Source of the DNA: Methanospirillum hungatei
GTDB taxonomy: Archaea > Halobacteriota > Methanomicrobia > Methanomicrobiales > Methanospirillaceae
Reading direction: 5' to 3'
Assembly: GCF_019263745.1 (NCBI RefSeq)
Contig: NZ_CP077107.1
Location: 1,922,001-1,986,000, forward strand
DNA length: 64,000 nucleotides
Shown here: positions 1,864 to 22,286 of the stretch, piece by piece
Layout: the number at the start of each line of letters is the position of its first letter
Position numbering within the stretch: position 1 is the stretch's first letter
Made by a program: the position numbers and the translations under genes
The notes under the pieces: generated by a model
Databases searched by the model: none
Seen by the model: the letters and a program-made list of their open reading frames with translations, nothing else
What the model was told of the DNA's origin: nothing

Positions 1864-2617
1864 ATACCAGGAAGGATATTCACAAATCAATCCAGCAGTT
1901 TTAAATATAAATGACAGAATGGATAAAGCAAAAAAAATTCAATTGGTATTGGACGATTATTTTAAAAATGACAGGAATTTCGGGATAGTTGTTGATATTG
2001 GATGTTCAGGAGGGATCATATTACATCATCTGAAGGGAGATTTTCAACAGAAAATCGGAATTGATATCGATTTTGAAGCATTAAAAAAAGCAAAACAGGA
2101 TTACCTTTTTCAGGATATCGATTTTATCTGTGCTGATGGCATGAATCTCCCGTTTCGTAACAATTCCACAGCATTCTGTATCTGTAACCATGTGTATGAA
2201 CACCTCCCAGATTCTAAAAAATTGTTCAAAGAAATATATAGAACACTTATATCAGGAGGAGTAAGTTATTGTGCTGCAGGGAATGCCCTTTCTATTATGG
2301 AAGGGCATTATCATCTTCCTTTTCTTTCATGGATACCGAAGGGGCTGGCTCATCGTTACTTAAGACTAATGAATCGTGGTGATTATTATTATGAGAAACA
2401 TCTGACATGGTGGTCCTTTAAAAAAATAATCTCAATGTTCAGGATTCATGACTATACCATCCGGATTATCAGGGAACCGGAATTATTTGCGGGTACTGAT
2501 TTAATTAAACCAGAATCAATGATTACCCGAATGCCTACAATATTTCTTACATTGCTCTATCCATTCATTCCAACTTGGATCCTGATGCTTGAAAAACCAA
2601 GAGTTGATCAGGATTGA
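1844..2617 (+). CDS. class I SAM-dependent methyltransferase
   Basis: About 257 residues of a Rossmann-fold methyltransferase. Motif I (VVDIGCSGGI) lies near residue 51, an acidic GIDIDFEAL segment follows, then CADGMNLPF and the family-typical VYEHLPDSKKLFKEIYRTL. These are the marks of the Methyltransf_11-type group. I prefer the ATG at 1844 because AGGAAG sits 6-11 nt upstream; a longer frame opens at 1808 inside the previous glycosyltransferase. The gene overlaps both neighbours, which indicates one transcript with the GT4 genes. Likely role: methylation of a sugar or lipid carrier intermediate in the glycan pathway; substrate not determinable. Confidence 0.82.
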   Translation: MNQMRSEYQEGYSQINPAVLNINDRMDKAKKIQLVLDDYFKNDRNFGIVVDIGCSGGIILHHLKGDFQQKIGIDIDFEALKKAKQDYLFQDIDFICADGMNLPFRNNSTAFCICNHVYEHLPDSKKLFKEIYRTLISGGVSYCAAGNALSIMEGHYHLPFLSWIPKGLAHRYLRLMNRGDYYYEKHLTWWSFKKIISMFRIHDYTIRIIREPELFAGTDLIKPESMITRMPTIFLTLLYPFIPTWILMLEKPRVDQD

Positions 2618-3627
2618 AAATACTTTTTCCATTAGCACAAGCCGATTCAGGATCAGATGTCTTCACCTACAATCTTGTTTCCGGATTGAATAACTCATCA
2701 ATTCAAGCCGATATTCAAAACCTCCCGAGATGGTCTGGATATGTCCCATCATTCATGGGAAAAATTTGCAAATCGGCAGGTTATGATATCATTCATGCAA
2801 ATACCTGGAATGGGTATCCATTTAAAAACAACAACCAACCTTTATTAGTAACAGAACACCTTCTTGTACATGATCCAATTTTTCTGCCCTATAAAACCTC
2901 TTTACAACGGCTCTATCATTCATATATTTTTCAATGGGAAAAAAAGAGCATTAATGTTGCAGATTCAGTAATCAGTATAAGCAACTATACAAAAAACAAA
3001 ATTGAAGAAGTATTTGGCTATTCTGATTCTATCCTCATTTACAATGGAATTGATGAAAATTTTTTTAAACCATTCGATGTTGAAAATCAGAGAATTGACT
3101 CAAATATTGTAGTTCCTTCCAAAAATACCATATTATTCTTTTCCGGAAATGCAACAATTAGAAAGGGTGGTGATCTGCTTCCAAAAATTATGAATGAACT
3201 CGGGGACAAGTATTCGCTGTTAATAAGTGGGGGATTACGAAAGAATACCCACTTAAATGCACCTAATATTATATCCACCGGGAAATTATCTTTACATGAA
3301 CTGGTAGAAATATACAATTATGCAGATATTTTTCTCTTTCCAACTCGGCTTGAGGGCTTCGGGCTCTCGGTTGCAGAAGCCATGGCATGTGGAAAGCCTG
3401 TTGTTACAACAGATTGTTCAAGTATGCCTGAACTGGTAGTTGATGGAAAGGGTGGTTTTCTCTGTGAAATGGATAATGTAAAAGATTTTGCAGAATCAAT
3501 CAGAATCCTCGCTGAAGACTCTTCTTTGCGTCGTGAAATGGGACTTTTTAATCGCAATAGGGTTGAAAAGAAATTTACTCTTGACAGAATGGTTCAGGAA
3601 TATATAAGGGAATATAAATATTTATAA
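2614..3627 (+). CDS. glycosyltransferase family 4 (GT-B)
   Basis: 337 residues beginning with a TTG codon that overlaps the preceding stop (TTGA) and has ATCAGGA just upstream, so translation is probably coupled. N terminus MKILFPLAQADSGSDVFTYNL is typical of the acceptor Rossmann domain. The C-terminal domain has FSGNATIRKGGDLLPKI and the donor-binding motif EGFGLSVAEAMACGKPVV near residue 246. Shorter than the first GT4 gene and only distantly similar to it, so it probably adds a different sugar of the same polymer. Cytoplasmic or peripheral membrane enzyme. Confidence 0.87.
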   Translation: MKILFPLAQADSGSDVFTYNLVSGLNNSSIQADIQNLPRWSGYVPSFMGKICKSAGYDIIHANTWNGYPFKNNNQPLLVTEHLLVHDPIFLPYKTSLQRLYHSYIFQWEKKSINVADSVISISNYTKNKIEEVFGYSDSILIYNGIDENFFKPFDVENQRIDSNIVVPSKNTILFFSGNATIRKGGDLLPKIMNELGDKYSLLISGGLRKNTHLNAPNIISTGKLSLHELVEIYNYADIFLFPTRLEGFGLSVAEAMACGKPVVTTDCSSMPELVVDGKGGFLCEMDNVKDFAESIRILAEDSSLRREMGLFNRNRVEKKFTLDRMVQEYIREYKYL

Positions 3628-3632
3628 TACTG

Positions 3633-4850
3633 ATGCAAAATCACTCTCGCTTATACCCTTTTCATATTATCGTATTAGATAATCATCCTGAAAATGATCA
3701 ACGAATCATCCGTCATATTGATTTTTGTAAAAAAAATCAGATTCCCATTGAAAGGATACGGTTTAACCTGCATCAAAAAACTCCGGAGATGATAATAGAC
3801 AAAATAAAGAGTAATTACTCACTTCAATGCCCGATTATTTTCAAAGGAGGAATATTCAATTATATCCTTGTTTATCTTTCAATGTTATTTTCTCCATGGA
3901 TATGGTATAAATTAATAAAATTAATTCGGAAAATTGTTCAGAAGAAAGGAGAACGAATTATTTTTCATGTTCATGATCCTTTCCTGCTCATTTTTGGAGC
4001 AGTCTTGAAAATTTTTAAATATAAAAACAGTTTCATCGTTTACGATCGTCATGAATATTATGAAGAAATGAAAGGTATCGGGAAATATTGTGAAAAATTT
4101 ACCCGTTTTTTTATAGATGGGATTGTCCTGGTGACTGATAACCAAATCCATAGTACGAAAACTCATATTCCCGGTGTAAATCATATTGTAGTTGTTCCAA
4201 ATTATCCAAATATTGACAATCGGTTTGCCGACAGAATTCATGAAAAAATATCAACTGTATTGCATTCAGATCGGATAAACATCACATACATCGGATCATT
4301 AAGTACAAAAGTAGACCGGGATATAAATGGAATGATGGATATTTGCTTAGCACTTTTAAAGAAATTTCCGGAAGTGTATGTTACGATAGGGGGATCAACA
4401 TCAGAAAAAGATCTCCTGGAGAGATTTGATATCCTTAAAACGATGTACTCGGGAAGGTTTTTTTATGCCGGATATCTGAACCGAAATGAAGTGATTCATT
4501 TTACTTCTGATGCACATTTTGGATTTTTCCTTATAGATGTGAATTCACCATATTGGGTTTCTTGTAGTCCAAATAAAATCTTTGATTATCTCTTGTATGG
4601 TGTTGTTCCAATCATCAGGGCAAATATAGAAGAGAGAGAAAACCTGAAACAATGTAGCTTGTTGTATGATCAGATCGATAGTAAAGAGAAAATAATCCAG
4701 GATATTGGGTATTTTATTGAAAATAGAGAACAACTTCAAAAATTCATGAAAGAGGCTAAAAAGTTAAGTCAATTGTATTCTTTCGAGTCAGTTGAGGAAA
4801 GATATTCTTTATTATACCAAAAAGTAATTTCATCGAGAAAAGAAAATTAA
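3633..4850 (+). CDS. GT4-like glycosyltransferase
   Basis: 405 residues. A segment IFHVHDPFLL near residue 110, VYDRHEYYEE near 138, and the late motif SPNKIFDYLLYGVVPII near residue 309 match GT4-like capsule and O-antigen transferases, in which the S-x-K-x-x-E/D-Y motif contacts the nucleotide sugar. A hydrophobic stretch near residues 73-95 may dock it on the membrane. It starts 5 nt after the previous stop and has no clear ribosome site, so it could be translated by readthrough of the same operon message. Last gene of the run; an AT-rich spacer follows. Confidence 0.78.
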   Translation: MQNHSRLYPFHIIVLDNHPENDQRIIRHIDFCKKNQIPIERIRFNLHQKTPEMIIDKIKSNYSLQCPIIFKGGIFNYILVYLSMLFSPWIWYKLIKLIRKIVQKKGERIIFHVHDPFLLIFGAVLKIFKYKNSFIVYDRHEYYEEMKGIGKYCEKFTRFFIDGIVLVTDNQIHSTKTHIPGVNHIVVVPNYPNIDNRFADRIHEKISTVLHSDRINITYIGSLSTKVDRDINGMMDICLALLKKFPEVYVTIGGSTSEKDLLERFDILKTMYSGRFFYAGYLNRNEVIHFTSDAHFGFFLIDVNSPYWVSCSPNKIFDYLLYGVVPIIRANIEERENLKQCSLLYDQIDSKEKIIQDIGYFIENREQLQKFMKEAKKLSQLYSFESVEERYSLLYQKVISSRKEN

Positions 4851-4989
4851 CGCATCATATTTGTGAATGAACTGTAATTGAATCCTGAATTGCAATTGCT
4901 TGATCTAATTATTATATTACAGAGAAAAAACAGAAAATGGTCAAATATTTATTCATGTTATCGATAATTGATAGTTCAGATGAAATTGT

Positions 4990-5060
4990 CCTTCAAAGTT
5001 ATTATTGAAATATACCTGAAGAGGTAAGCTGAATGATAATCTGTTGATACATGAAACTCA
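4990..5060 (+). pseudogene. wecB relic (fragment), left arm
   Basis: The stretch from about 4990 (CTTCAAAGTTATTATTGAAA) through ACCTGAAGAGGTAAGC aligns without gaps to the interior of wecB that encodes LRSFDRGMPEEVN, about 25 of 34 bases identical to the copy at 6265-6298. It contains stops and no open frame, so it is a decayed fragment. The matching fragment in the right arm lies at about 15766-15830 on the other strand. Confidence 0.55.
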
Positions 5061-5114
5061 TATACTTCAACCAAGGGCTTTATTGCCCATAATGCATAAT
5101 AATAAAATAACATA

Positions 5115-5150
5115 CACATAGTAAAGTTTATAAACTTTTTTCTCTATGTG
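5115..5150. promoter_or_regulatory. nested palindrome, candidate operator/promoter of the PIN module
   Basis: CACATAG (5115-5121) and CTATGTG (5144-5150) form a perfect inverted repeat around a perfect 16-bp palindrome AAAGTTTATAAACTTT (5123-5138), whose centre is also a good archaeal TATA box. The antitoxin start codon lies 39 nt further on. Toxin-antitoxin operons are usually repressed at such sites by their antitoxin; this role is inferred. Confidence 0.5.
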
Positions 5151-5188
5151 CAAAGATATCTGATTCGGATTATACCAGGAGATAGATT

Positions 5189-5404
5189 ATGAAAGTAAAG
5201 GACCTCATTTATGAAGAAATTAAAGACATGTCAGCTTCAGAATATTTATCAGTATATCAGTATATCCACGCAATTAAAGCAATTCGCCCAAAATTACATA
5301 AAAATAAGAGAGAACATGCATATGAGGATGTTTGCTCTGCCCTTAACAATCTTACAGGAACCCTGACAGATGATATTGTCCAGGGAAGAGAAGAACGAGT
5401 ATGA
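5189..5404 (+). CDS. small antitoxin-like protein upstream of PIN toxin
   Basis: 71 residues, highly charged, with no recognisable catalytic motif. GGAGATAGATT upstream supplies the ribosome site for the ATG at 5189. Its stop overlaps the start of the PIN-domain frame (ATGA), the classic order antitoxin-toxin. A close relative (70 residues, about 60 percent identical by eye, shared core REHAYE and C-terminal REER) lies at 15392-15604 on the minus strand. The N-terminal half (KVKDLIYEEIKDMSASEYLSVYQY) is probably helical and could dimerise on DNA, but I cannot place it in a named antitoxin family. Role as antitoxin rests on position. Confidence 0.6.
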   Translation: MKVKDLIYEEIKDMSASEYLSVYQYIHAIKAIRPKLHKNKREHAYEDVCSALNNLTGTLTDDIVQGREERV

Positions 5405-5858
5405 ATCTTTTTTTTGATACATCTGCTCTTGTTAAGATATTTCATAACGAGGAAGGATCAGAATCAATCCAAAATTTGATCTTAAATGAACAGAATAATC
5501 TCTATATATTAGATATTGCACAAATCGAATATTATAGTGCATTATATAGACGATATCGAAATCATGAATTATCAAAAAAAAACTCTCTATTGCCATTACA
5601 GGGTTTGAAAAGGAAATGGCAAATTATTACATTCAGTCAACAACATCACCGATAATAAAAGAAGCACAAAACCTCATATTTTCATATGGAAAAAGATTCG
5701 GACTTCGAACCCTTGATTCACTTCATCTAGCAGCTTTTTCTTTAATCGCAAATGAAGATTGGATTTTTGTTTGTTGTGATGCAATATTGTCATGTGTCGC
5801 AGAAGAATGTCACTACACTGTTTTTAATCCAATTCTAAAAAAAGAAAGACGAGATTAA
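5401..5858 (+). pseudogene. PIN-domain toxin (VapC-like), frameshifted
   Basis: Two overlapping frames together make one PIN domain ribonuclease. The first frame (ATG 5401) gives MNLFFDTSALVKIF with the first catalytic Asp and an acidic IAQIEYYSAL; the second frame gives ITGFEKEMANYY, then TLDSLHLAA and VCCDAILS with the remaining acidic residues. The switch occurs in or near a run of nine A at 5574-5582; one extra base would restore a single frame of about 150 residues. As written the toxin is dead or made only by slippage. VapC-type enzymes cut tRNA or rRNA when freed from antitoxin. A sequencing error in the homopolymer is an alternative explanation. Confidence 0.75.
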
Positions 5859-5908
5859 ATTATTAAAAAATTATTGGTTGATTCCTCCAAAAAAATCCAA
5901 ATCATTCC

Positions 5909-6976
5909 ATGAAAATTATTTCAGTCCTCGGTGCCAGGCCCCAGTTCATCAAATCATCCCCGGTTTCGCGGTTAATTAGAGAGAAAAACACAGAGATTCT
6001 GATCCACACCGGTCAACATTATGATCCGGAGATGTCTGAAATCTTCTTTAAAGAACTTAATATCCCAAAACCGGACTATAATCTGGGGATTGGTTCAGGA
6101 TCACATGGCAAACAGACGGGTGAAATGCTCGTAAAAATTGAGGAGATACTTTCTCTTGAAAGACCTGATTTGGTTTTAGTATACGGGGATACCAACTCAA
6201 CTCTGGCAGGAGCGTTGGCAGCCGCAAAACTCCATATTCCGGTTGCTCATGTTGAAGCCGGTCTTCGAAGTTTTGATAGAGGCATGCCAGAAGAGGTGAA
6301 TCGGGTTTTAGTTGATCATCTATCAGACATCTTATTCTGCCCGACACAGACTGCTGTTGATAATCTCTATAGCGAAGGCATAAAAAAGGGCGTGTTTCTG
6401 ACCGGGGATGTGATGGCTGATGCATTGATAGAGAATCTTACGCTGGCGGAAAAACAATCTCCTATACTTGAACAATACTCTCTCAGGTCAGGTCAGTACC
6501 TGGTCCTAACCATTCACCGGCCATCCAACTCAGACAACCCTGAATGTATGAATGATATCATCAGAGCAATTTCAGACAGTGGTGTGAAAACAATATTTCC
6601 GGTTCATCCCAGGACAAAAAAGAATCTTATTGATTTTGGTATATGGAATAAAATGCCGGATAACATCATTTTGTGTGATCCTCTCGGGTATCTGGATATG
6701 ATCATGGTGATGCGGCATGCCTTAAAAATCCTGACTGATTCTGGTGGTATTCAGAAAGAATCATACATTCTTCATACTCCATGTTTAACTCTCCGTGATA
6801 ATACCGAGTGGGTTGAAACAGTGAATGCAGGATGGAACACCTTAGTAGGATCAGAGAGATCCAGAATAGAAAAGATGATCCATACATTTATTCCCGAACC
6901 AACACATCCGGATTTGTTTGGGTCAGGCGCATCTGCAAAAATTGTGGAGATAATTACACACTATGAAGATAGATAG
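5909..6976 (+). CDS. wecB: UDP-N-acetylglucosamine 2-epimerase (non-hydrolysing), copy 1
   Basis: 355 residues, full family length. Interconverts UDP-GlcNAc and UDP-ManNAc, a precursor for ManNAc-type sugars in archaeal glycans. Family signatures are all present: GARPQFIK at residue 8, TGQHYDPEMS at 34, GKQTGEML near 69, VYGDTNSTLAGA near 91, HVEAGLRS near 114, HRPSN near 204, HPRT near 230 and DSGGIQKE near 272. The gene overlaps the following deacetylase by 14 nt, so the two are coupled. A second, clearly diverged copy (roughly three quarters identical) lies at 14217-15293 on the other strand. Confidence 0.95.
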   Translation: MKIISVLGARPQFIKSSPVSRLIREKNTEILIHTGQHYDPEMSEIFFKELNIPKPDYNLGIGSGSHGKQTGEMLVKIEEILSLERPDLVLVYGDTNSTLAGALAAAKLHIPVAHVEAGLRSFDRGMPEEVNRVLVDHLSDILFCPTQTAVDNLYSEGIKKGVFLTGDVMADALIENLTLAEKQSPILEQYSLRSGQYLVLTIHRPSNSDNPECMNDIIRAISDSGVKTIFPVHPRTKKNLIDFGIWNKMPDNIILCDPLGYLDMIMVMRHALKILTDSGGIQKESYILHTPCLTLRDNTEWVETVNAGWNTLVGSERSRIEKMIHTFIPEPTHPDLFGSGASAKIVEIITHYEDR

Positions 6977-8012
6977 TAATACACTTCGTCTTACTCGCCC
7001 GGACCTCTGGGATCGGTTCACCAGGCGGGAAGAATACGAAAACCCCATCCGTGATATGCATGGCAGATTTCCGTACTGGGCAAGCCAGGATAGGGATATC
7101 TTCAGACCTTCGGTATCAGAATACCTGTATGAACAGGGATTAATCAAACCAGAATACCCGGACGGGTGCGAATTTGCCCTGTGTGTAACCCATGATGTTG
7201 ATGTGATATATTCATCGCCATACATGAAAATCCTGAATGGGCTCCTGTCTGCCAGGCAGGGCGACCGAAAGAGAGCCGTACGAGAAATCGGTTCGGCATG
7301 TAACCGAAAAAGCCCTTTTTATAATTTTAAAGAGATATTATCTTTAGAGGAAAAATACGGGGTAACGTCAACCTGGTTTTTTCAGGCCCTGGAACCCGGC
7401 GAACCGGAGTTCCGATATAGGTTATCAGATGTTGAAGATGTTTTAGGTGATATTCTTGATGCAGGGAGTGAGATTGGGTTACATGGAGGATTTGATGCTC
7501 CCTTTAACCTGGACCGACTATTGATTGAGAAGACTCGACTTGAAAAGGTACTTGGGGAGAAGGTAACGGGATACCGCAGTCATTATCTTAAGTTCCAGGT
7601 GCCAAAGACCTGGGAGTTACTAGAACAGGCGGGGTTTTCATATGATTCGACACTTGGATATTCTGACTGTATGGGTTTCCGGAGTGGAATGTGTCATCCG
7701 TACAAGCCGGTGAATTTGAATACCGGGAAGGAGATTGATATTATTGAGTTCCCGCTTCATGTGATGGACATGAGTTTGTTTCACCAGTATATGCGGCTTG
7801 ATTTTGATGGGGCGTGGAGAGTGGTTAAAAAATCTATTGATAATGTACATAATTGTCGTGGTGTATTGGTCATAAACTGGCATAATACCGGATATGTCAA
7901 TGATAGCTATGAAAAAAAGATTGTAGAAAAGATTATGGCATTCTCAATAAAAAGAGGAGCGTGGATAGGAAGTATGAATCAAATCATTTATCCGGTGAGT
8001 TACAAGTTATAA
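6963..8012 (+). CDS. polysaccharide deacetylase family protein
   Basis: 349 residues, no signal peptide. Metal-binding motif THDVDV near residue 77, a second motif GLHGGFDAP near 172 and YRSHYLKF near 200, followed by SYDSTLGY, are the usual NodB-fold order. C-terminal NWHNTGY resembles the last conserved motif of the family found in surface-glycan clusters. It starts inside the end of wecB, so the pair probably converts and then deacetylates an N-acetylated nucleotide sugar or glycan intermediate, which is inference. Its last 85 residues are duplicated as a fragment at 9039-9317. Confidence 0.85.
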   Translation: MKIDSNTLRLTRPDLWDRFTRREEYENPIRDMHGRFPYWASQDRDIFRPSVSEYLYEQGLIKPEYPDGCEFALCVTHDVDVIYSSPYMKILNGLLSARQGDRKRAVREIGSACNRKSPFYNFKEILSLEEKYGVTSTWFFQALEPGEPEFRYRLSDVEDVLGDILDAGSEIGLHGGFDAPFNLDRLLIEKTRLEKVLGEKVTGYRSHYLKFQVPKTWELLEQAGFSYDSTLGYSDCMGFRSGMCHPYKPVNLNTGKEIDIIEFPLHVMDMSLFHQYMRLDFDGAWRVVKKSIDNVHNCRGVLVINWHNTGYVNDSYEKKIVEKIMAFSIKRGAWIGSMNQIIYPVSYKL

Positions 8013-8142
8013 CCAGTTAACACATACGAATGTTCGTTCTATGTGAAGGTATTTAGTTTTCATGATCATATCCATATTACAAAACAAGTCTTAATCCAAT
8101 ACAATCAGTTAATATAAATAAATTATTTTGAAAGGGGGTTTC
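8013..8142. promoter_or_regulatory. intergenic region with small inverted repeat
   Basis: CACATA (about 8031) and TATGTG (about 8049) enclose a CGAA/TTCG inner pair, a hairpin-like element of about 25 nt. The half-sites resemble CACATAG/CTATGTG at 5115-5150. It could be a terminator for the deacetylase or a regulator site for the next gene; the sequence does not decide. Confidence 0.3.
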
Positions 8143-9042
8143 ATGTCACTCATCCACAGTAAACACATACAGATTATGAGAGTCAAGTCCAACAATGTAT
8201 TAACAACCATTCATTTGACATTCCACCGACGAAAAATAAAATATATTATTCAATCTTTAACAGATCATGAGTGTGAAAGTATTCATCTCATTGGTGATGC
8301 TCTCATCGAAACTATTGATAATATAATTACTCCTGAAGAAGAACGATACATATCTCTCGTAGAAAAACGAAGATCTTTTTTGTTAAAATCGGATTTGGTA
8401 GTCGAAAGTGTTGATTATGGTGCTGGAAACCCCAAATCTGACAGAACCAAAGAACAGATGCGAGAAGGATTTCGCTCGACCACTTCAGTTTCACAATTAT
8501 GCAGGATTAGCAAATCGAAATTTTGGGCCCTTTTAATTTTTAAATTAATTCGGAAACTAAAGCCTGCTTCATGTTTAGAGTTAGGTACGTGTCTGGGCAT
8601 TTCTGCATCATATCAGGCAGCTGCACTAACTTTGAATAAAAAAGGAAGATTATTGACTCTTGAAGGATCTCCAGAATCATGTAAAATTGCAAAAGAAACA
8701 ATGGAAGAGGTTGAATTAAAGAATGTTGATGTAGTATGTGGTCCTTTTGATGATACCTACCTTAGTGCTCTTTCATCATTACAACATGTAGATTTTTTAT
8801 TCAACGATGGGCATCATGATCATGATGCCGTGCTCAAATACTTCAAAGAAGCATTACCCTATTTGGCAGATGATGCAATTATTATCTTTGATGACATCGC
8901 TTGGTCTCAAGGGATGCAAAAGGCTTGGAGAGAGATTGAAGATGATACAAAAGTTGTTGTTACTGTTGATCTCGGCACTATGGGTATAGCCTTTTTGTCA
9001 AAAAGAGAGATTGAGAAAACCAGGTTTTCTATACCGTTATGA
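8143..9042 (+). CDS. class I SAM-dependent O-methyltransferase-like protein
   Basis: About 299 residues. The ATG at 8143 is preceded by GAAAGGGGG at ideal spacing; a TTG at 8128 would place that ribosome site inside the gene, so I reject it. The C-terminal two thirds form a methyltransferase fold: CLELGTCLGISASYQAA (motif I) near residue 144, LLTLEGSPESCKIA (motif II), VDFLFNDGHHDHDAV and IIFDDIAW. This pattern is that of Methyltransf_24-type enzymes found in glycan clusters. The N-terminal 110 residues are unassigned. Its stop overlaps the ATG of the deacetylase fragment that follows. Confidence 0.8.
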   Translation: MSLIHSKHIQIMRVKSNNVLTTIHLTFHRRKIKYIIQSLTDHECESIHLIGDALIETIDNIITPEEERYISLVEKRRSFLLKSDLVVESVDYGAGNPKSDRTKEQMREGFRSTTSVSQLCRISKSKFWALLIFKLIRKLKPASCLELGTCLGISASYQAAALTLNKKGRLLTLEGSPESCKIAKETMEEVELKNVDVVCGPFDDTYLSALSSLQHVDFLFNDGHHDHDAVLKYFKEALPYLADDAIIIFDDIAWSQGMQKAWREIEDDTKVVVTVDLGTMGIAFLSKREIEKTRFSIPL

Positions 9043-9317
9043 AAGATGAATACCAGAAAAGAATTGATATTATAGAGTTGTTACTCCATGTGATGTACAT
9101 GAGTTTGTTTCAGCAGTATATGCGGGTTAATTATGATGGGGCGTGGAGAGTTGTTAAGGAGATAATTGATTCAGTGCGCAAATGCAAGGGAGTGTTTGTA
9201 GTGAACTGGCATAATACAAACTTCAGAGAGAATTATATTGAAAGAAAAGTGTTAGAGAAAATACTTGTTTATTGTGAAAAGAAACCAGCATATATGGAGA
9301 CCCCATTATTGCCCTGA
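9039..9317 (+). pseudogene. 3' fragment of a polysaccharide deacetylase gene
   Basis: Encodes 92 residues that match only the last quarter of the deacetylase at 6963-8012: IDIIELLLHVMYMSLFQQYMR against IDIIEFPLHVMDMSLFHQYMR, then DGAWRVVK and NWHNT. No metal site remains. The nucleotide match is about 80 percent by eye over 9064-9215. It begins with ATGA overlapping the methyltransferase stop, so it may still be translated, but a catalytic role is not credible. It looks like the residue of a duplication or of insertion of the methyltransferase gene. Confidence 0.7.
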
Positions 9318-9339
9318 TCACTTTGTGGAGATTGAATCA

Positions 9340-10470
9340 GTTTTGAAATCACAAATTAAAATAATAGTGACAGATGCTAACTACAAACATACTTTAGGAA
9401 TTGTTAGAAGTCTGGGTCGAGCAGGCTATTATATTGTCGCTTTGGGACAAAATAAAAGATCCCAGTCATTTTACTCGAAATATTGTAAAGAAAAATTAAT
9501 TTCTCCTGATCCGAAAAATGAAGTTGAATTTGTTCAATTTTTGGAAAATTATTTAATGAACAATAAAATAGATATTCTACTTCCAGTTGGATATAATTCA
9601 ACAATAACAATATCTAACCACAGAGATAAACTGCTACCATTAGTTACAATTCCTCTTGCAGGAAAAACCGCCATTGAAATTGCATCAGATAAAAGAAAGA
9701 CATTAGATTTAGCAAAAAAACTTAACATTTTAACTCCAATGGAATATTACTCCGTTAAAGGCATCAACAAATATCCCGTTGTTGTCAAAGGAATTTATGA
9801 ATCAGGACAAATAAGGTATATCAATTCTCAAGAAGAAGTAAATAGAATTGATTTTTCTACAAATGTTGTTCAGGAATATATACCTGGTGATGGTTATGGA
9901 TTATATGCACTGTTCAATAAAGGTGAATTGAGAACTTTTTTTATGCATCAAAGAATTCGAGAATATCCAATTACAGGTGGCTCTAGTACTTGTGCAAAAA
10001 GTGTTTTTTATGAGGAATTGAAAAACACTGGAATTAGGATATTAAAAGAACTTAAATGGCATGGAGTAGCCATGGTCGAATTCAAAAAAGATACTCGTAA
10101 TGATAATTATGTTCTAATGGAAATTAATCCAAAATTTTGGGGATCTTTAGATTTATCTATCTCTTCAAATCTGGATTTTCCAAGATTACTTGTAGAGATG
10201 TCATTAAAGGGTGATATTGAACCAATTGATAATTATTCAAAAGACATAATATTTCGTTGGCCTTTTCCAGATGATTTTTTATTTTTATTTTCCAAACCCT
10301 CCTCCATCATACCAATGATACGAGAGTTATTTAATAAAAAAGCATTTAGTAACATAATGATCGAAGATTTTTTTCCTAACATCATTCAAATAATAAATAC
10401 AATTATTGTATTAAAATCAAAAATTTTAAATAAAAATTTACGGTACCCACATGGAAAACCAAAAATTTAA
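9340..10470 (+). CDS. ATP-grasp domain ligase
   Basis: About 376 residues if it starts at the TTG at 9340 (GGAG about 9 nt upstream, giving MKSQIKIIVTDAN). The frame is open upstream to 9265, but that part overlaps the deacetylase fragment. ATP-grasp features in order: N-terminal pre-ATP-grasp fold to about residue 110, lysine segment YPVVVKGIYESGQ, the linker VQEYIPGDGYGLY, and the metal site GVAMVEFKKD followed by LMEINPKFWGSLDLS with the Glu and Asn that bind magnesium. Such enzymes join a carboxylate to an amine or thiol through an acyl phosphate. The 3' end overlaps the PHP gene by 20 nt; a joint role in glycan or amino-sugar modification is inferred. Confidence 0.82.
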   Translation, partial: VLKSQIKIIVTDANYKHTLGIVRSLGRAGYYIVALGQNKRSQSFYSKYCKEKLISPDPKNEVEFVQFLENYLMNNKIDILLPVGYNSTITISNHRDKLLPLVTIPLAGKTAIEIASDKRKTLDLAKKLNILTPMEYYSVKGINKYPVVVKGIYESGQIRYINSQEEVNRIDFSTNVVQEYIPGDGYGLYALFNKGELRTFFMHQRIREYPITGGSSTCAKSVFYEELKNTGIRILKELKWHGVAMVEFKKDTRNDNYVLMEINPKFWGSLDLSISSNLDFPRLLVEMSLKGDIEPIDNYSKDIIFRWPFPDDFLFLFSKPSSIIPMIRELFNKKAFSNIMIEDFFPNIIQIINTIIVLKSKILNKNLRYPHGKPKI

Positions 10471-11152
10471 AATTGTCGCTGATTTTCATATTCATTCAAA
10501 ATATTCATATGATTCCCTTTTATCCCCAAAAAAGATATTAAAAATTGCTAAAAAACGTGGTTTAAATACAGTTGCCCTAACTGATCATAATTCGATTAGA
10601 GGAGGAATTGAAACTCAAAAATTTAATAATGATCCAAATTTTCATGTGATTATTGGATCTGAGATCAATACAGAAATTGGAGATATTATTGGAATATATT
10701 TAAACGAGGATATAAAATCGAGAGAATCAATTGTTGTTATTGAAGAAATTAAAGCTCAAGGAGGAATGGTAATTCTGCCTCATCCTTATAGGGGACATGT
10801 ACTTTATGAACAAATAATTTCACAATGTGATGCCATTGAAATCTTTAATAGCAGATCCTCAATAATTGAAAACAATTCATCTCTCGAATTAGCTCGAAAA
10901 TTCAAAAAGCCTTTTGTTGCAGGAAGTGATGCCCATTTTTCTTGTGAAATCGGATTGTCAAAAAATTTCTTAAACAATAATCAATTTAAAGAGACAATAG
11001 CATTTCCATTCTCTCACAAAAACATCTTTGGCAATTACAGTCCGAATTATTTAATTCATTATAGTCAATTGATCAAATCCATTAAAACGAGAAATCTTAA
11101 AAAAATTCCATATGACTTTTTTAAAATCACGAGTTGTATTTTTCATCATTAG
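10451..11152 (+). CDS. PHP-domain phosphoesterase
   Basis: 233 residues. The metal ligands of the PHP fold are visible in order: DFHIHSKYSYDS (HxH) at residue 11, LTDHNS near 44, a Glu in IGSEINTE near 78, ILPHPYRGH near 112 and GSDAHFS near 158. The family hydrolyses phosphomonoesters or phosphodiesters with a trinuclear metal centre. The gene starts within the ATP-grasp gene and its 3' end overlaps the convergent methyltransferase gene at 11127 by 26 nt. Substrate unknown; pairing with the ATP-grasp enzyme suggests they act on one metabolite. Confidence 0.85.
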   Translation: MENQKFKIVADFHIHSKYSYDSLLSPKKILKIAKKRGLNTVALTDHNSIRGGIETQKFNNDPNFHVIIGSEINTEIGDIIGIYLNEDIKSRESIVVIEEIKAQGGMVILPHPYRGHVLYEQIISQCDAIEIFNSRSSIIENNSSLELARKFKKPFVAGSDAHFSCEIGLSKNFLNNNQFKETIAFPFSHKNIFGNYSPNYLIHYSQLIKSIKTRNLKKIPYDFFKITSCIFHH

Positions 11153-12122
11153 ATATAATTTCTTTCTTTTTCGCTAGTATTCTAATTACCGGCAAATTTA
11201 ATCGGGAATTCTTTTTTTTAAAGAAATTAGTTAAATACATTAGGCTTATTCTTACACACATGGTAAAATCCGATATACAAATATTCCTTAAACTAAAAAT
11301 ACCGCATTCAAACATTATTTCTCTATCTTTGAAGTAATCCTTCCATATAAACAGGTAATCAATCCGTGAATCCCAATAATGAGGATTTCCTACCCGTTCT
11401 AAAAACAATATCTCATAATTGTTATTCTCTAACAGAATTCGAAGGCTCAATTCTGAAAAAGACCAAAAGTGTTGTCCCATTGAACTGGATGGGAATGTAT
11501 CTACTTCCATAACAGGTCCCTCATATTCCGCATCAGGAACTTCCAAAAAGAGGTAATGCTCGTGCAAGTATGCTTGAAAGATATTAATTATTTTATTAGG
11601 ATTATCAAGATGCTCTAATAAATGAATTAGAGAAATGAAATTAATTTCTGAACGATGAATCCCAATTTCCTTTACCAAATCTTCACATAAAAAACCTGCT
11701 TTTAAATCGACTTTTAAATTCTCTTCCCCCCATTGGGTTGAAACTGGATCAGAATCAAATCCCATTCCAGAATTTAAAAAACCTGATCGTTTTAAGTATG
11801 ATAAAACCCACCCTCTTCCTGCTCCAAACTCCAAATAATTTATTTTATGTGGCTCAATTTTTATTTTTTTCAGCCCATCAATAATAAATTTAGACTGTAC
11901 TTCAGCCATATTTCTCTCAATATTGTCTGAATATCGAAAATACCGTGATGAATAATATTCGTTTATTGTTTTTGCATCAGGTAATGGCTCCCTAAAATAT
12001 AGACCACATTTTTTACAGTGGTAAGTTGAAGAATCTATTAAATTCAATAATCTTAACGAATTTAGTTTAATAGCATTAGAATGACAGATTGGACAAATCA
12101 TATGTTTCACTTTATAGTTCAT
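11127..12122 (-). CDS. zinc-ribbon SAM-dependent methyltransferase
   Basis: 331 residues. The N terminus has a treble-clef zinc knuckle, CPIC at residue 11 and CKKC near 36, then a Methyltransf_23-type domain: YLEFGAGRGWVLSYL (motif I) near residue 99, MGFDSDPVSTQWGEE, FISLIHLLEHLDNP, and LFLEVPDAEYEGP. This domain order is typical of C-methyltransferases for deoxysugars, though the substrate is unknown. A second ATG, 8 codons in, would still keep the zinc site. Transcribed with the flippase upstream (start at 13596). Converges with the PHP gene. Confidence 0.82.
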   Translation of the reverse strand: MNYKVKHMICPICHSNAIKLNSLRLLNLIDSSTYHCKKCGLYFREPLPDAKTINEYYSSRYFRYSDNIERNMAEVQSKFIIDGLKKIKIEPHKINYLEFGAGRGWVLSYLKRSGFLNSGMGFDSDPVSTQWGEENLKVDLKAGFLCEDLVKEIGIHRSEINFISLIHLLEHLDNPNKIINIFQAYLHEHYLFLEVPDAEYEGPVMEVDTFPSSSMGQHFWSFSELSLRILLENNNYEILFLERVGNPHYWDSRIDYLFIWKDYFKDREIMFECGIFSLRNICISDFTMCVRISLMYLTNFFKKKNSRLNLPVIRILAKKKEIISNDEKYNS

Positions 12123-12225
12123 GGAATTGGATTTTTAGATATTATGTAAAAATATTTTTGGATTCATAAATTTTCTTTTAAACTTCAAAGATTATTACTT
12201 CATTACTATTGGTATCACAGATTAA

Positions 12226-13596
12226 TTATTGATTAATAACAACAAATTTCAAAAATTTCTCAATTACATGCAATACAATAAAGACGAGAACAAAATACAT
12301 TACTATCATAATTATTGTATAAACAGTAAGTGTTATTGATACTGAACATCTAAACAAGATACAGAAATAAAATCCTAAAATTACTCCTCCTGTTCGAGTT
12401 ATATCCCATATCAGGTTCCAATGATTATTTCCATATATCGATAGAATAGAAGTTGGGGAAATGATAAATCCAACAATAGCCATTGGTGCCAAAAGCCAAC
12501 AAAATAAACCTGAATCACTCCAAACCTCTCCAAAAATATATGGAATTAAAAAGGGTGCAAGTAACGCAGGTAAACCTATCAATGGTATAGCAATAATTGA
12601 CAAATGTTTGATTGTTTTTAAATAAAATTCTCTCAAACTTTTCGAATTCTCTCTAACCATTTTTGTTGCTTCACCTAAGTATGCCTGTCCCATTGCTTGA
12701 GAAATTGCATTACCTGGAAACACTACTAAAGTATATGCAAGCGAATAAAAACCCACTATTTGAGAATCATAAACCCAAAGTAATATAATAGATGGAATTT
12801 GCAATGATAGTGTGTTTATAATTGAGGCAGGAAAATGAAATATCGGAAACGCTTTATACTTTTTTGCTAATATTTTAACATTACAGAAAGATAATTTATT
12901 TAAATTATTAATTTCTTTGCTCCATACTCTCCTGCCAAGAATAAGTATACCAGTTATTTGAGAGATAATATGCCCAATTATCAGACCTAAAGGACCAAAG
13001 GATATAATTCCAAGAATAATTTTTAATGACACCCCTCCAATACCTTGGTTGATTTTTGTATGAGTAATCATCTTATAATCTTGTTGACGAATTGCCCAAT
13101 TATTCAAGACATTATACAATCCCATTCCGAAGAAACCAATCACTAAATATCCATAATATTTCTTAGATAGATCTATATGGAAAGGATTTGTATAAAAAAA
13201 ACTAGCAAATAATAGTAAAAAAGATAAAGAAACAGTAGTACTAAACAAGAGTATCACACACAAAAAAAGGAGATTTATCGCCTCGCCATCATTTTTAGGT
13301 AATCCTAATGCAAATTCATACTTTAGTGAAGCACCAATCCCCAACATTGCCAAGACTGAAGAAAATACAGCAAGAATTCCCAGATCAGAGGGAGTATAAA
13401 GACGTGTAATAATTGGCATGGAAAGAATACCAATTAGTTGAACCACTGCAGTTCCGCTTCCAAGAATTATTACCCCTTTGTAAAGGGGTTTATTTAGAAT
13501 AAATCTAATAATGTGATCTACAAATGATATCTTCTTGAAATAAATAACAGAAGATATAAGCAATCGGTATAATATCGTGTATAGGTTAACAGTCAT
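12226..13596 (-). CDS. Wzx-like polysaccharide flippase
   Basis: 456 residues with about 12-14 hydrophobic segments. The start of the conserved core (GVIILGSGTAVVQLIGILSMPIITRLYTPSDLGIL, residues about 38-73) is the hallmark of Wzx/MATE-related oligosaccharide exporters. Such proteins flip lipid-linked glycan units across the cytoplasmic membrane. It is the only exporter in the island, so the products of the surrounding transferases presumably leave the cell through it. On the minus strand, 103 nt ahead of the zinc-ribbon methyltransferase; probably one transcript. Confidence 0.88.
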   Translation of the reverse strand: MTVNLYTILYRLLISSVIYFKKISFVDHIIRFILNKPLYKGVIILGSGTAVVQLIGILSMPIITRLYTPSDLGILAVFSSVLAMLGIGASLKYEFALGLPKNDGEAINLLFLCVILLFSTTVSLSFLLLFASFFYTNPFHIDLSKKYYGYLVIGFFGMGLYNVLNNWAIRQQDYKMITHTKINQGIGGVSLKIILGIISFGPLGLIIGHIISQITGILILGRRVWSKEINNLNKLSFCNVKILAKKYKAFPIFHFPASIINTLSLQIPSIILLWVYDSQIVGFYSLAYTLVVFPGNAISQAMGQAYLGEATKMVRENSKSLREFYLKTIKHLSIIAIPLIGLPALLAPFLIPYIFGEVWSDSGLFCWLLAPMAIVGFIISPTSILSIYGNNHWNLIWDITRTGGVILGFYFCILFRCSVSITLTVYTIIMIVMYFVLVFIVLHVIEKFLKFVVINQ

Positions 13597-13954
13597 TCAT
13601 TCTAACTCATAAAAGTTAATCATTATTAAAAATTAAGAAATATTAATACTAATCGGAACTTTTCAACCAACCACAAGTATGGATTTCACCACAGGTCCCC
13701 TATATTATTTACCACTAGAAAGATTAGATTTAACTGATTGGCCATCCAGTGAAGAAAAACGAACTGGACAATCTGCCATTTATAATTCGGGGCAAATGTC
13801 GAATACTGTCAACAAGATATTCTTACACAAGTCATTCACAAGTTCGTCCATTTTTTCTCCAATTTCATTACCCAATTCTATCATATTAACTCAATTTATG
13901 AAAATAGTTAGATAGCATTCGCTAATGAGTGGCAATCTTGAAATTGTTGGATTT
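13597..13954. other. gene-free stretch between flippase and transposase stub
   Basis: 358 nt, AT-rich. It must contain the flippase promoter near 13600-13660. A 78-codon plus-strand frame at 13679 has no ribosome site, no family features and odd composition. A 34-codon minus-strand frame near 13775-13877 is equally unsupported. I see no gene here. Confidence 0.5.
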
Positions 13955-14233
13955 TTAGTAATAATGAGATAAACCCTGAATATCTACTTCACTTTTCAGA
14001 AGTCTTGCCAATAATACCACTTGATATGAAATAAAATTCAATGCAATATAGAACTCTTTGGAGCGATTTTGAATCCATTTCACACAGAAATTGAATGTTC
14101 GTTTCATATGGGAATGTGTCCTTTCACAATCACTTCTGGATTTATATTGCTCCTGAAAATTTGGATTAAGTATGTTTAGATTACGGATAACTCCCACCTG
14201 TTTCCCTCGATTATTATCATAGAGAAATTGCAC
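13955..14233 (-). pseudogene. C-terminal transposase fragment (DDE family)
   Basis: 92 residues that resemble the end of a DDE transposase: an RSDCERTHSHMKRTFNF block with the final Glu, then NRSKEFYIALNFISYQVVLLARLL, a common helical C terminus. The first two catalytic Asp and the N terminus are missing, and the frame simply opens inside the 3' end of wecB copy 2, overlapping it by 17 nt. No terminal inverted repeats are visible. It is therefore a stub left after deletion of an insertion sequence, and its junction marks a rearrangement point. The exact IS family is not recognised. Confidence 0.65.
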
Positions 14234-15293
14234 TTAAAAATTTTCCGATTATCTCAACAATTCTCTTTGACCCGCCTCGACCAAACAGATCCGGATATTC
14301 TTTTGGAGGAGCAAATGTACTGATCATCTCAAGGATCTTTTTCCGGTCAGCCCCCACCAGTACGTTCCAACCCGCATCCACTGTCTCAACCCATTCGGTG
14401 TTTTCCCGGAGTGTGATGCAGGGGACCGAGAGCAGGTATGCCTCCTTTTGAATCCCACCAGAATCGGTGAGAATTTTCGCAGCAGAACTCATCACTGTTA
14501 TCATATCAAGATACCCAAGTGGATCACATATTATCAGGTTTTCAGGAAGTTTCTTAGACAATTCATATTTTCGGATTAAATTCCTCGTCCGGGGATGAAC
14601 CGGAAACAATGTCGGAATTTTACAATCACTGACAGCACCGATAATATTCCTCATATTTTCTAAATTATCAGTGTTAGAAGGCCTGTGGATAGTAAGAACC
14701 ATATATTGGCCGGGTTTCAGAGAAAAATCTCCCAGGAGTTTCGAGTGCTCTGAGGCAATATTCCGATAATACTCCAAAGCATCAGCCATTACATCACCGG
14801 TGTGGAACACTCCCTTTGTTATTCCTTCTTCCCGGAGATTATCCACCGCAGTTTTAGTCGGACAAAAGAGCAGATCTGATACATGGTCAACCAAAACGCG
14901 GTTCACCTCTTCAGGCATATTTCGGTCAAAACTCCGAAGACCAGATTCGACATGAGCTACCGGAATATGGAGTTTTACTGCTGCCAATGCTCCTGCAAGG
15001 GTGGAATTTGTATCACCATATACCAGAACCAAATCGGGACTTTCTATTGATATTGTCTCTTCTATCTTTACCAGCATTTCACCGGTTTGTTTCCCATGTG
15101 ATCCAGAACCAATCCCCAGATAATAATCAGGTTTTGGGATCTTAAGTTCATCAAAAAAAACCTCTGACATTTCCGGATCATAATGCTGACCGGTGTGGAC
15201 CAGGACCTCCTGGTGATTCTTACGAAGCTCTCTGGACACCGGAGCACATTTAATGAATTGCGGTCTTGCACCGACAACTGAAAGGATTTTCAT
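14217..15293 (-). CDS. wecB: UDP-N-acetylglucosamine 2-epimerase (non-hydrolysing), copy 2
   Basis: 358 residues with the full set of family signatures: GARPQFIK, TGQHYDPEMS, GKQTGEML, VYGDTNSTLAGA, HVESGLRS, HRPSN, HPRT and DSGGIQKE, so it should be active. It differs from copy 1 throughout (about 75-80 percent protein identity by eye, concentrated in the N-terminal half). It runs opposite to copy 1 and sits in a mirror-image arrangement with its own antitoxin-like gene upstream. The C-terminal residues FLSAISL run into the transposase stub, so the last few codons may be replaced by rearrangement. Confidence 0.94.
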   Translation of the reverse strand: MKILSVVGARPQFIKCAPVSRELRKNHQEVLVHTGQHYDPEMSEVFFDELKIPKPDYYLGIGSGSHGKQTGEMLVKIEETISIESPDLVLVYGDTNSTLAGALAAVKLHIPVAHVESGLRSFDRNMPEEVNRVLVDHVSDLLFCPTKTAVDNLREEGITKGVFHTGDVMADALEYYRNIASEHSKLLGDFSLKPGQYMVLTIHRPSNTDNLENMRNIIGAVSDCKIPTLFPVHPRTRNLIRKYELSKKLPENLIICDPLGYLDMITVMSSAAKILTDSGGIQKEAYLLSVPCITLRENTEWVETVDAGWNVLVGADRKKILEMISTFAPPKEYPDLFGRGGSKRIVEIIGKFLSAISL

Positions 15294-16386: not shown

Positions 16387-16395
16387 AAAAATCAC

Positions 16396-19645: not shown

Positions 19646-20239
19646 ATGCAGATCATAAAAAACAAAATAATAATAGAAGGTCCGAAAGTTCATGAAGTAG
19701 GATACAGGGTTTTCCTCTTAAACCGGGCTTTGACTTCAGGACTTACCGGCTTTTCCGCATTTAACCATGGTACCCATGATACCATTCAGCAGATAGAGAT
19801 CTGTATTGAAGGAGAAACGGACGTCGTTCAAGACTTTGTTACAGGTTTGGAGGAGATTATTCCAACCCATGCTGTTGTCGATAAGATTTCAATCGAACCA
19901 TACAATAGAAGGGTCATCAATATACTGGATTACATACACCTAGTTCAGGTTGAACAACTGGATAAAGGAATTCCCGCCATTTTAAGCATACAGTCCTCAC
20001 AGGAAAAGATGCTTGAAAAACAGGATCTCATGTTAGATAAACAAGATCAAATGATCGAGAAACAAGACCTCATGATAGAAAAACAGGAACAGATGATTGA
20101 CACCCAGAGACAGACAAATAAAGAGATTCAGACCTTACGATATGACCTGAAGACCGAGATGAATGAACGGTTTAATAAAATAGAACATGAACTTGAGCTG
20201 GTAAAAGATGCTCTCCATAAACATGGAATCATGGCATAA
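19646..20239 (+). CDS. acylphosphatase-like domain fused to heptad coiled coil
   Basis: About 197 residues from ATG 19646 (GTG 19604 is in frame but adds residues not found in the family). Residues 1-95 follow the acylphosphatase fold: IIIEGPKVHEVGYRVF gives the phosphate loop with Arg21, and GLTGFSAFNHGT holds the catalytic-type Asn40, so both key residues are kept. Residues about 115-160 are five consecutive heptads of the type (L/I)-x-K-Q-x-x-M (for example IEKQDLMIEKQEQM), followed by a charged helix ELELVKDAL. A second protein with the same design is at 21738. Acylphosphatases hydrolyse carboxyl phosphates; why one should carry a coiled coil is unknown. Confidence 0.75.
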   Translation: MQIIKNKIIIEGPKVHEVGYRVFLLNRALTSGLTGFSAFNHGTHDTIQQIEICIEGETDVVQDFVTGLEEIIPTHAVVDKISIEPYNRRVINILDYIHLVQVEQLDKGIPAILSIQSSQEKMLEKQDLMLDKQDQMIEKQDLMIEKQEQMIDTQRQTNKEIQTLRYDLKTEMNERFNKIEHELELVKDALHKHGIMA

Positions 20240-20513
20240 AAAAGATATCCTTGATTTTTAGATGGAACAGTCAAGATAATCCTTTAAAAACATCATTATA
20301 AAAATAAAAATTTAAAGGGGCCTGCTCTGATAATAATCCTAACAAAATCCCTTTTTTAGAATACTAGCAAAAATCCTGCCATAAGTACATCAAAGTCTAA
20401 ATCGCGAATAGTTTTTCACCATTCAAAAGGAATACAATTATTTGTCATTTATATTTTAACGAAAAATCAATCTATTAGACACGTGCAGGTATAAATTTAG
20501 AAATTATGGGTTT
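20240..20513. other. AT-rich gap between convergent genes
   Basis: 274 nt with T-rich stretches on both strands (for example near 20347 and 20443) that can end transcription from either side. No gene seen. Confidence 0.4.
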
Positions 20514-21476
20514 TTAACTGTACCATGCCCCTCTGTTCTCCTCCTGCATATCAAACATCATAGCAAACAAAAGAAACTGTACTCCTAATGCAAACAAAAT
20601 CACAGAGACTACTGCCGGAACAAATATTGAATTATTCATAATAAACTTAAACCAGAGTGCATATAATCCAAACAAAACTGAAATAAACGTAAAAAAAACG
20701 CCTGCACAATAGAAAAACACCAAAGGATGAAACGACAATAAAACATATTTCATTTTCATCCGCCAGATAAACGCATTCAGGAGTAACCAGGACAACCGGA
20801 CAATATATGTAGAATATTTTATCTTTGATCGCTCAAGCCCATACCTGGCCGGATGAGGCACATTCCGGACGCGAAATCCAAATGTATTGAGCCAGACCAG
20901 GAGATCATTACAATATCCGTACCGGGGATATATCTCATCAAGTGAAATAGTCTCCAGAGCACGCCTAGAAATCGCTGTATAACCGTTTTGGGGATCCATG
21001 AGTTGCCAATACCCGGATGCTATCTTTGTAAGGAGAGTCAAAACAGAGTTACCAACAAACCGCCATGTAGACATACCCTCCCGGAATTTCTCATTCACTA
21101 ACCGGTTCCCAACTGAGTAATCCACTGCTTCATCAGCAACAGGATCTAATAGTTCAGGAAGGAAAGCAGGATCCATCTGATTATCCCCTGCCATCACTGC
21201 AACAATATCCATCCCGTCAGAAAATGCCCGTTTATACCCGGAGATGATTGCTCCCCCCACTCCTTTGTTTTTAAGATGATGGATAGGAATTACCCGATTA
21301 TCTTTCTTCGCATATGAATCAATGAGGGCACCTGTCTGGTCTGGAGATCCATCATTCACAACGTATACCCGGTCAACGAAATCCGGAATCGATTCCAGGG
21401 TCGGCACTATAAGTAATTCTTCTTTATATGCAGGAACAACAACAGCAGTTTTTTTATTTCGATACATAGCAAGCAA
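20514..21476 (-). CDS. GT2 glycosyltransferase, dolichyl-phosphate-sugar synthase type
   Basis: 320 residues. GT-A fold signatures: AVVVPAYKEELLI at residue 11, VVNDGSPDQTG near 38, NKGVGGAIISGYKRAF near 69 and the metal motif VMAGDNQMDPAFLPEL near 94 (D-x-Q-M-D), then the QNGYTAISRRAL segment. Two membrane helices at residues about 245-270 and 280-310 anchor it. This layout is that of archaeal polyprenyl-phosphate mannose/glucose synthases, which load a sugar on the lipid carrier for N-glycosylation or glycolipids. An alternative ATG three codons in is equally good. It lies between the two acylphosphatase-coiled-coil genes on the opposite strand. Confidence 0.85.
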   Translation of the reverse strand: MLAMYRNKKTAVVVPAYKEELLIVPTLESIPDFVDRVYVVNDGSPDQTGALIDSYAKKDNRVIPIHHLKNKGVGGAIISGYKRAFSDGMDIVAVMAGDNQMDPAFLPELLDPVADEAVDYSVGNRLVNEKFREGMSTWRFVGNSVLTLLTKIASGYWQLMDPQNGYTAISRRALETISLDEIYPRYGYCNDLLVWLNTFGFRVRNVPHPARYGLERSKIKYSTYIVRLSWLLLNAFIWRMKMKYVLLSFHPLVFFYCAGVFFTFISVLFGLYALWFKFIMNNSIFVPAVVSVILFALGVQFLLFAMMFDMQEENRGAWYS

Positions 21477-21737
21477 CTACAATTTTTTATGAATGATATT
21501 GTAAGAGAGAATTCCAAACCTTAATGGACTACGTTTATAATAAGACAATTAATCAATATTAAACCATATCCTGTTGAAAATATGAGAGTCGGTTTTTTCG
21601 TGAAATTATTTGCCCCCTGAATACAAAATAAGCAATTGTATTCATATCTACAAGTATTAACAAACTCATCACTGAAGATATTGAAGAAAGGCACGAATTA
21701 TTCTCAGAAAAACTATTTCCGCTCATCTCCCTAATTT

Positions 21738-22286
21738 ATGAACATGATAAGACGAGTAAAAATAATCGCAGGGGGTGACGTTCAGGCTGTTGGATACCGT
21801 GAATATGTTCGAAAAGCCACCTTCAGGAAAAAAATATTTGGACAGGTACAGAATCTTGAATCCGGAGAGGTCGAAATAATTGCAGAGGGTGAAGAAAATG
21901 ACCTTAAAAGTTTTATCGAGAATATCAACGTTAGTGAATACCCAATAGATGTCCGTGAATGTAATGTCACCTGGCATGATGCAATTGGAGATTACACAAA
22001 ATTTGAAATTATCCGGGGAGATAAAGACCAGGAATTATTTGAAATAATTGATATCGCATTATCACATCTCTATCGGATTGTTGAAAATACAACAATAAGC
22101 TTGGAAAAACAGGATCAGATGTTAGGTAAACAGGATGGGATGATCTCACTCCAGCATGATACGGTAGTGGAGATCAAAGGGTTACGAAAAGACTCTGAAT
22201 CATATTTTGAGAAAGAATTTTCTGAAATAAAAAGAAAACTCCATTCCATAGAGAATGCACTGAACGAGATGGGAATAAAAGTATAA
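21738..22286 (+). CDS. acylphosphatase-like domain fused to coiled coil, second copy
   Basis: 182 residues. RRVKIIAGGDVQAVGYREYV carries Arg21 of the phosphate loop, and KKIFGQVQNLESGEVEIIAEGE carries Asn39, the two catalytic positions of acylphosphatase; the domain ends near residue 95. Then comes a linker helix, the heptad pair LEKQDQMLGKQDGMI and a C-terminal helix FSEIKRKLHSIENALNEMGIKV. The coiled coil is shorter than in the copy at 19646, but the C-terminal helix is alike. The two genes flank a GT2 gene. The pair is too diverged for a recent duplication. Confidence 0.76.
   Translation: MNMIRRVKIIAGGDVQAVGYREYVRKATFRKKIFGQVQNLESGEVEIIAEGEENDLKSFIENINVSEYPIDVRECNVTWHDAIGDYTKFEIIRGDKDQELFEIIDIALSHLYRIVENTTISLEKQDQMLGKQDGMISLQHDTVVEIKGLRKDSESYFEKEFSEIKRKLHSIENALNEMGIKV

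Follow-up and report, generated by a model that had tools for sequence, protein, structure and literature searches.

Acylphosphatases (AcPs) form an old enzyme family whose fold has been much studied and whose biological role is uncertain. The classical members of this family (Pfam PF00708), such as those of S. solfataricus (2bjd/4ojg) and B. subtilis (3br8), comprise a single domain of ~90 residues with a catalytic Arg and a catalytic Asn. In HypF (3vth, 3vti), an AcP domain is found at the N-terminus of a larger protein, a carbamoyltransferase of about 740-750 residues that includes other domains. Another archaeal AcP fusion, of obscure role, was described in Thermoproteales, in which the partner of the AcP is a SelD-like enzyme and not a coil (PMC4210487). 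The combination of an AcP with heptads was met in a protein subfamily of Borg elements (subfam0779), in which PF00708 is listed together with the 7-residue repeat KLVEGQN (PMC9879509). Regarding layout, a further described system is WbdD of E. coli O9a, which is encoded among glycan genes and joins an enzyme head, a coil and a C-terminal interaction module, and whose coiled coil acts as a ruler, in which coil length sets O-antigen length (PMC5082667, PMC3482155).

In the window, that is, the whole stretch of 64,000 nucleotides of Methanospirillum hungatei DNA that was analysed, two open reading frames (19646-20239 and 21738-22286) were found where a preliminary description had placed them, and their products, P0001 and P0002, were compared with these systems. 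Both share profile, fold and the catalytic Arg and Asn with the PF00708 acylphosphatases; however, their family adds to the AcP a coil and a private C-terminal module, and is present in many copies per genome. With 197 and 182 aa including the coil, P0001 and P0002 have neither the architecture of the classical 90-aa acylphosphatase nor that of HypF, although HypF was the best Foldseek match of P0001. The Borg subfamily, whose likeness was judged by a table row alone, is the only close precedent found: it shares an AcP with tandem seven-residue repeats and belongs to an element of related archaea, whereas its repeat sequence differs and that row describes no family, coil or glycan link (PMC9879509). 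The layout of WbdD is shared by the AcP-coil genes, the glycan setting for a subset of loci; nevertheless, the WbdD heads (kinase, methyltransferase, chain-capping) are unrelated, and any likeness would be functional and not one of membership. Moreover, trimer formation, membrane targeting and the ruler effect were measured for WbdD, whereas the AcP-coil family is known here from sequence and single-chain models. No archaeal AcP-coil family was described in the literature searched, which takes in few subscription journals, and within that scope the initial statement that no such system was described still holds. Annotation libraries detect only its acylphosphatase part, which may be why the family went undescribed.

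Architecture of the paired genes

The features of the pair and of its surroundings, by window position and strand, are listed below.

19646..20239, + strand: P0001, 197 aa, with an H-class AcP head (VHxVGYR motif), a heptad coil and a C-terminal module
19664..19909, + strand: AcP domain of P0001, residues 7-88 (Pfam stretch)
19706-19708 and 19763-19765, + strand: catalytic residues R21 and N40 of P0001
19922..20221, + strand: long helix of P0001, residues 93-192 (DSSP on the AlphaFold2 model)
19999..20097, + strand: degenerate 21-bp tandem repeats coding for the P0001 heptads (Tandem Repeats Finder)
20123..20236, + strand: conserved C-terminal module of P0001, EIQTLRYDL...GIMA (family alignments)
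20514..21476, - strand: GT2 glycosyltransferase between P0001 and P0002, AglJ-like / polyprenyl-phosphate sugar transferase-like (PF00535, 87.1 bits)
21738..22286, + strand: P0002, 182 aa, with a main-class AcP head, a short heptad coil and a C-terminal module
21759..22010, + strand: AcP domain of P0002, residues 8-91 (Pfam stretch)
21798-21800 and 21852-21854, + strand: catalytic residues R21 and N39 of P0002
22023..22268, + strand: long helix of P0002, residues 96-177 (DSSP on the AlphaFold2 model)
22170..22283, + strand: conserved C-terminal module of P0002, EIKGLRKDS...GIKV (family alignment)
631..15293, no strand: surface-polysaccharide island (context, outside the pair; Pfam scans)

The heads of both proteins are acylphosphatases by profile, fold and residues, as had been proposed. 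In the Pfam scan, PF00708 matched both proteins above its cut-off of 22.5 bits, P0001 with 38.5 and P0002 with 63.3. The fold was modelled by AlphaFold2 with family alignments, as single chains, and the AcP fold was obtained for both, an outcome that the preliminary description had left to structure prediction. In the models the AcP domain is followed by one helix, of 100 residues in P0001 (mean pLDDT 90.5) and 82 residues in P0002 (mean pLDDT 88.3). Among the best PDB matches in Foldseek were solved acylphosphatases for P0002, including 4ojg (E 4.9e-10, TMt 0.92), and HypF and acylphosphatases for P0001. The catalytic Arg and Asn, whose retention in both proteins was borne out, were kept in 87/90 and 88/90 family members, respectively, and R21 and N40 of P0001 were invariant across the 13 H-class members aligned. 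At the level of named subfamilies, all NCBIfam acylphosphatase equivalog models fell below cut-off for P0001 and P0002, and the HypF model TIGR00143 was absent for P0001 and absent among the 25 best models listed for P0002, scoring 20-41 bits on other family members (cut-off 466).

The fusion of a heptad coil to the AcP was likewise recovered in both proteins as a long helix with KQD-type heptads. The helix of P0001 carries about five of them, encoded by DNA repeats of period 21 (4.7 copies, 71% matches), whereas only 2-3 heptads are found in P0002, in which the 21-bp DNA repeats are no longer kept. The C-terminal helix had been called common to the two proteins; their last 38 residues are identical at 12/38 positions, so that "common" stands in the sense of related and not of identical. 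Compared with two relatives, P0001 gave pairwise dN/dS values of 0.20 and 0.08, and P0002 gave 0.095 with its single relative, the second and third values being rough at high dS. This range of about 0.08-0.20 indicates purifying selection on both genes. Together with the relatives found in many genomes, this selection ruled out a chimera or a misread frame, and the fusion is thus not a peculiarity of one genome, a possibility that had been raised at the outset.

The pair lies ~4 kb past the end of the 15-kb surface-polysaccharide island, which holds GT1/GT4 enzymes, methyltransferases, two UDP-GlcNAc 2-epimerases, an ATP-grasp protein and a flippase-like protein. The gene between the two had been taken for a lipid-sugar synthase. 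It encodes a GT2 enzyme; its best curated match was AglJ (TIGR04182), at 64.3 bits far below the cut-off of 325, so that the label of lipid-sugar synthase is no more than plausible. Since the GT2 gene is convergent with P0001 and divergent from P0002, the three genes do not constitute one operon. Relatives of this GT2, 84-90% identical, also adjoin AcP-coil genes at two other loci (L050 and L059), and a P0001-type gene adjoins a GT2 relative or AglB at loci L050 and L062.

Distribution and glycan-gene neighbourhood

The AcP-coil genes are a widespread, multi-copy archaeal family. The window genome itself harbors four AcP-coil genes, one free AcP and one separate HypF. In the search of the closest relatives, 61/61 genomes matched the family model, with up to 13 matching stretches per genome within the genus, both counts taking in free AcPs and HypF, and in a sample of the phylum 109/393 genomes matched at E<=1e-25. 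Arrays of AcP-coil genes hold up to five genes. A scan of named genomes, seeded with the close alignment set and therefore finding close relatives only, returned full-length matches that included Methanospirillum stamsii, Methanoculleus sediminis, Methanocalculus chunghsingensis and M. taiwanensis, as well as a match over the first 136 residues on a Methanothrix sp. contig. All its full-length matches were archaeal except one, an AcP-coil gene from a short contig assigned to Bacteroidetes (MWDJ01000120.1), which is probably a misbinned methanogen contig, and the coil tail was absent from all bacterial AcP matches inspected in that scan. Within the reach of this close-relative scan, a bacterial spread of the family was rejected on these grounds. 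Relatives were found neither in viral contigs (one scan) nor in plasmids, and no PADLOC anti-phage model matched P0001 or P0002 up to E 0.1, so that a role in anti-phage defence or as mobile-element cargo was also discarded. A short-tail subtype (L075-like), whose tail lacks the KQD heptads, adjoins the same phenylalanyl-tRNA-synthetase-like gene, assigned by sequence only, in four loci, and showed no association with glycan genes.

The neighbourhood of the AcP-coil loci was compared with random placement in 24 mostly complete genomes, with a UDP-sugar dehydrogenase or an STT3/AglB gene as markers; the matches were assigned manually to three groups (AcP-coil, short-tail, free AcP), and the calculation used rounded sizes for a few genomes and took contigs to be circular. 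A marker was found within 5 kb of 8/44 AcP-coil loci, against 0.63 expected (~13x chance), within 10 kb of 11 (1.27 expected) and within 20 kb of 16 (2.43 expected), whereas none of the 29 free AcP genes of these genomes had one within 5 kb. The location beside a sugar synthase, at first remarked for this one locus, thus extends to a statistical pattern across genomes. Nonetheless, it is a minority pattern, given that neither marker lay within 5 kb in 36/44 loci, and no link to glycan markers was seen in some many-copy genomes (e.g. G401). Among 108 flanking genes, the Pfam tally included UDP-sugar dehydrogenase (6), GT2 (4) and GT1 (3), all three absent among the families listed with at least 2 members for 109 genes of random controls. 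In the flanking-gene clusters of the fetched loci, which were partly picked by match strength and include related loci, GT2 was present at 14 loci, UDP-sugar dehydrogenase at 13 and epimerases at 10, with DegT and AglB at 8 each. In the arrays L098 and L099, the genes lie in one orientation with short spacers, and sugar-nucleotide genes follow downstream. Each of the two arrays has a further gene upstream, and that of the five-gene array L098 encodes, in this archaeal genome, a Wzz-like chain-length-determinant protein (4552-5391; PF02706, PF13807).

We tentatively favour the possibility that the AcP-coil proteins are oligomeric acylphosphatases, with the coil as a rod or scaffold, and that a large minority of them work with surface-glycan enzymes. 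P0001 and P0002 would then be multimeric, each beginning with a predicted catalytically competent AcP head that leads into one continuous helix; these helices would associate through their heptads as a coiled-coil rod whose length differs from gene to gene, with the C-terminal module joining like subunits or docking on a partner. In that large minority, the proteins may act in cell-surface glycan assembly, comprising nucleotide-sugar synthesis, polyprenyl-linked sugar transfer and N-glycosylation, where the rod could keep several AcP active sites at a fixed spacing from the glycan enzymes or bound to them in a complex, and these sites would cleave or bind carbamoyl phosphate, acetyl phosphate or some other acyl phosphate. 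Against a glycan role, no glycan step with an acyl-phosphate intermediate was identified. The layout of this phylum-wide, multi-copy acylphosphatase and the genes around it both suggest a part in the surface glycosylation of methanogens and their relatives.

The main rival to this glycan-enzyme reading, and a strong one, is that multimeric acylphosphatases of general metabolic role, for instance in removing carbamoyl or acetyl phosphate, occupy variable islands where glycan genes happen to lie as well, so that the co-location would reflect island ecology. It is a possible, if somewhat doubtful, explanation. The GC content of the AcP-coil genes was below that of control regions in several genomes (0.54 vs 0.635 in G039, 0.53 vs 0.627 in G171, 0.40 vs 0.48 in G002), copy number varies between genomes, AAA_14/DUF4143 ATPases and nucleotidyltransferase-type genes, as are usual in flexible regions, occur among the neighbours, and most AcP-coil loci lie away from both markers, all of which would be expected from such carriage. 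However, the two one-orientation arrays with short spacers, placed between a Wzz-like gene and sugar-nucleotide genes, argue against it, as does the lack of glycan association of the short-tail subtype and the free AcPs, although these perhaps simply lie outside islands.

Coil length and proposed exchange of heads and tails

Coil length was taken as the distance in residues between the catalytic Arg and the C-terminal motif EIxGLRxD. In Methanomicrobiales this distance took 12 values, from 109 to 214 residues, and all main-type genes (26/26) shared the remainder 4 mod 7, i.e., lengths changed in steps of seven. In the rest of the phylum, the same remainder was found in 20/28 genes, and the P0001 class had remainders of its own, 5 for P0001 and its closest relatives. 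Near-perfect 21-bp repeats are still present in 26/90 family genes. Of the heptad positions, one was 75% hydrophobic and two only 9-12%. This phase lock can result from slippage of the 21-bp repeats or from selection for an unbroken coil, and slippage by itself would equally yield lengths in steps of seven. The binomial P of 1e-22 for the phase lock, which ignores both shared ancestry and slippage, is not a measure of the strength of selection.

Heads and tails did not always share the same relationships. In the array L098, an H-class head only 22-24% identical to those of its array neighbours is followed by a tail 85-87% identical to theirs; at L077, an H-class head is placed on a P0002-like tail (identity to L058 of 0.32 for the head and 0.77 for the tail); and L045 and L070 have like heads (0.74) and unlike tails (0.26). 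From these comparisons we infer that heads and tails recombine, either through the heptads or by tail conversion, and the common tails within one array suggest that mixed oligomers could form. The tail was not found on non-AcP domains in 23 genomes, where the matches of the tail model traced to AcP genes or apparent remnants, and the idea of a mobile coil module carried by other domains was dropped. Altogether, the heptad-quantised length and the head and tail swaps provide a clear structural hypothesis.

A second alternative takes length itself as the function: a coil made of whole heptads would set the distance of the AcP head from a membrane-bound or partner enzyme and, in this way, the length or form of the surface glycan, by analogy with WbdD, whose coil insertions and truncations alter O-antigen chain length (PMC5082667, PMC3482155). 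Length does vary strongly in phase, glycan genes are associated with the family, and heads stay constant while coils change, as in three AcP-coil genes with other ORFs between them (L105:5975-10310), whose first 120 residues are identical and whose total lengths are 192, 199 and 220. Nevertheless, this explanation is unlikely, in view of a helix-only tail with no evident membrane anchor, the lack of a chain-terminating activity, and neutral slippage, which can explain the length variation. In its widest form, the preferred glycan-enzyme reading would extend to an archaeal toolkit in which AcP heads are recombined onto coils of heptad-quantised, fast-changing length, and the resulting rods, homo- or hetero-oligomeric, would fix the spacing or the chain length as surface glycans and N-glycans are assembled. 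Such a toolkit, a convergent counterpart of the WbdD ruler that would give acylphosphatase a specific physiological role in cell-surface biosynthesis, is a speculative extension with little probability of being right as a whole.

Some single loci depart from the usual architecture. At L059 (7324-7689, genome G002), an in-frame stop interrupts the P0002 relative that adjoins the 90%-identical GT2, and the catalytic Asn of this relative is changed; near it lies another AcP gene with a different head and a P0002-like tail, and intact copies exist elsewhere. An AcP head is fused to a 442-aa protein with no other Pfam match and no coil at L071 (5345-6673), and at L122 (3505-4440) a truncated PAS/histidine-kinase-like stretch passes into an AcP-coil frame, which looks like an insertion of this gene into one for a kinase.

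Possible signalling roles and nearby genes of the window

A small ligand-binding domain on a coil is a usual layout of a sensor. The preliminary description had suggested the sensing of acyl phosphates, in which the heads would bind these ligands and a signal would run along the coil to a partner, turnover not being the main purpose. The two diverged head classes would also suit this proposal. The near-invariant catalytic residues fit an active enzyme and, in principle, also a sensor binding the same ligands; however, a pure sensor would not need both of them, the proteins carry no output domain, and their genes have no constant effector neighbour, which makes sensing an improbable main function. 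Finally, hydrolysis of aspartyl phosphate on response regulators or similar phosphoproteins is very improbable and was rejected along with a two-component partner: although P0002 is followed by a response regulator (22586-24043) and then a histidine kinase (24195-26225; Pfam), and genes of these two clusters also come after the AcP genes of L059, response-regulator genes are not enriched nearby, Response_reg being absent among the families listed for AcP-coil flanks and counted 3 times in the random controls.

On the other side of the pair, between the polysaccharide island and P0001, a HicA toxin gene (PF07927) with a small gene in antitoxin position was identified on the minus strand (15914-16395). 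It is followed at 16975-18541 by two copies of a DUF3782/PDDEXK_10 protein, one truncated and one intact, and the intact copy carries tandem coil repeats of its own (VEELAEAQKRTE).
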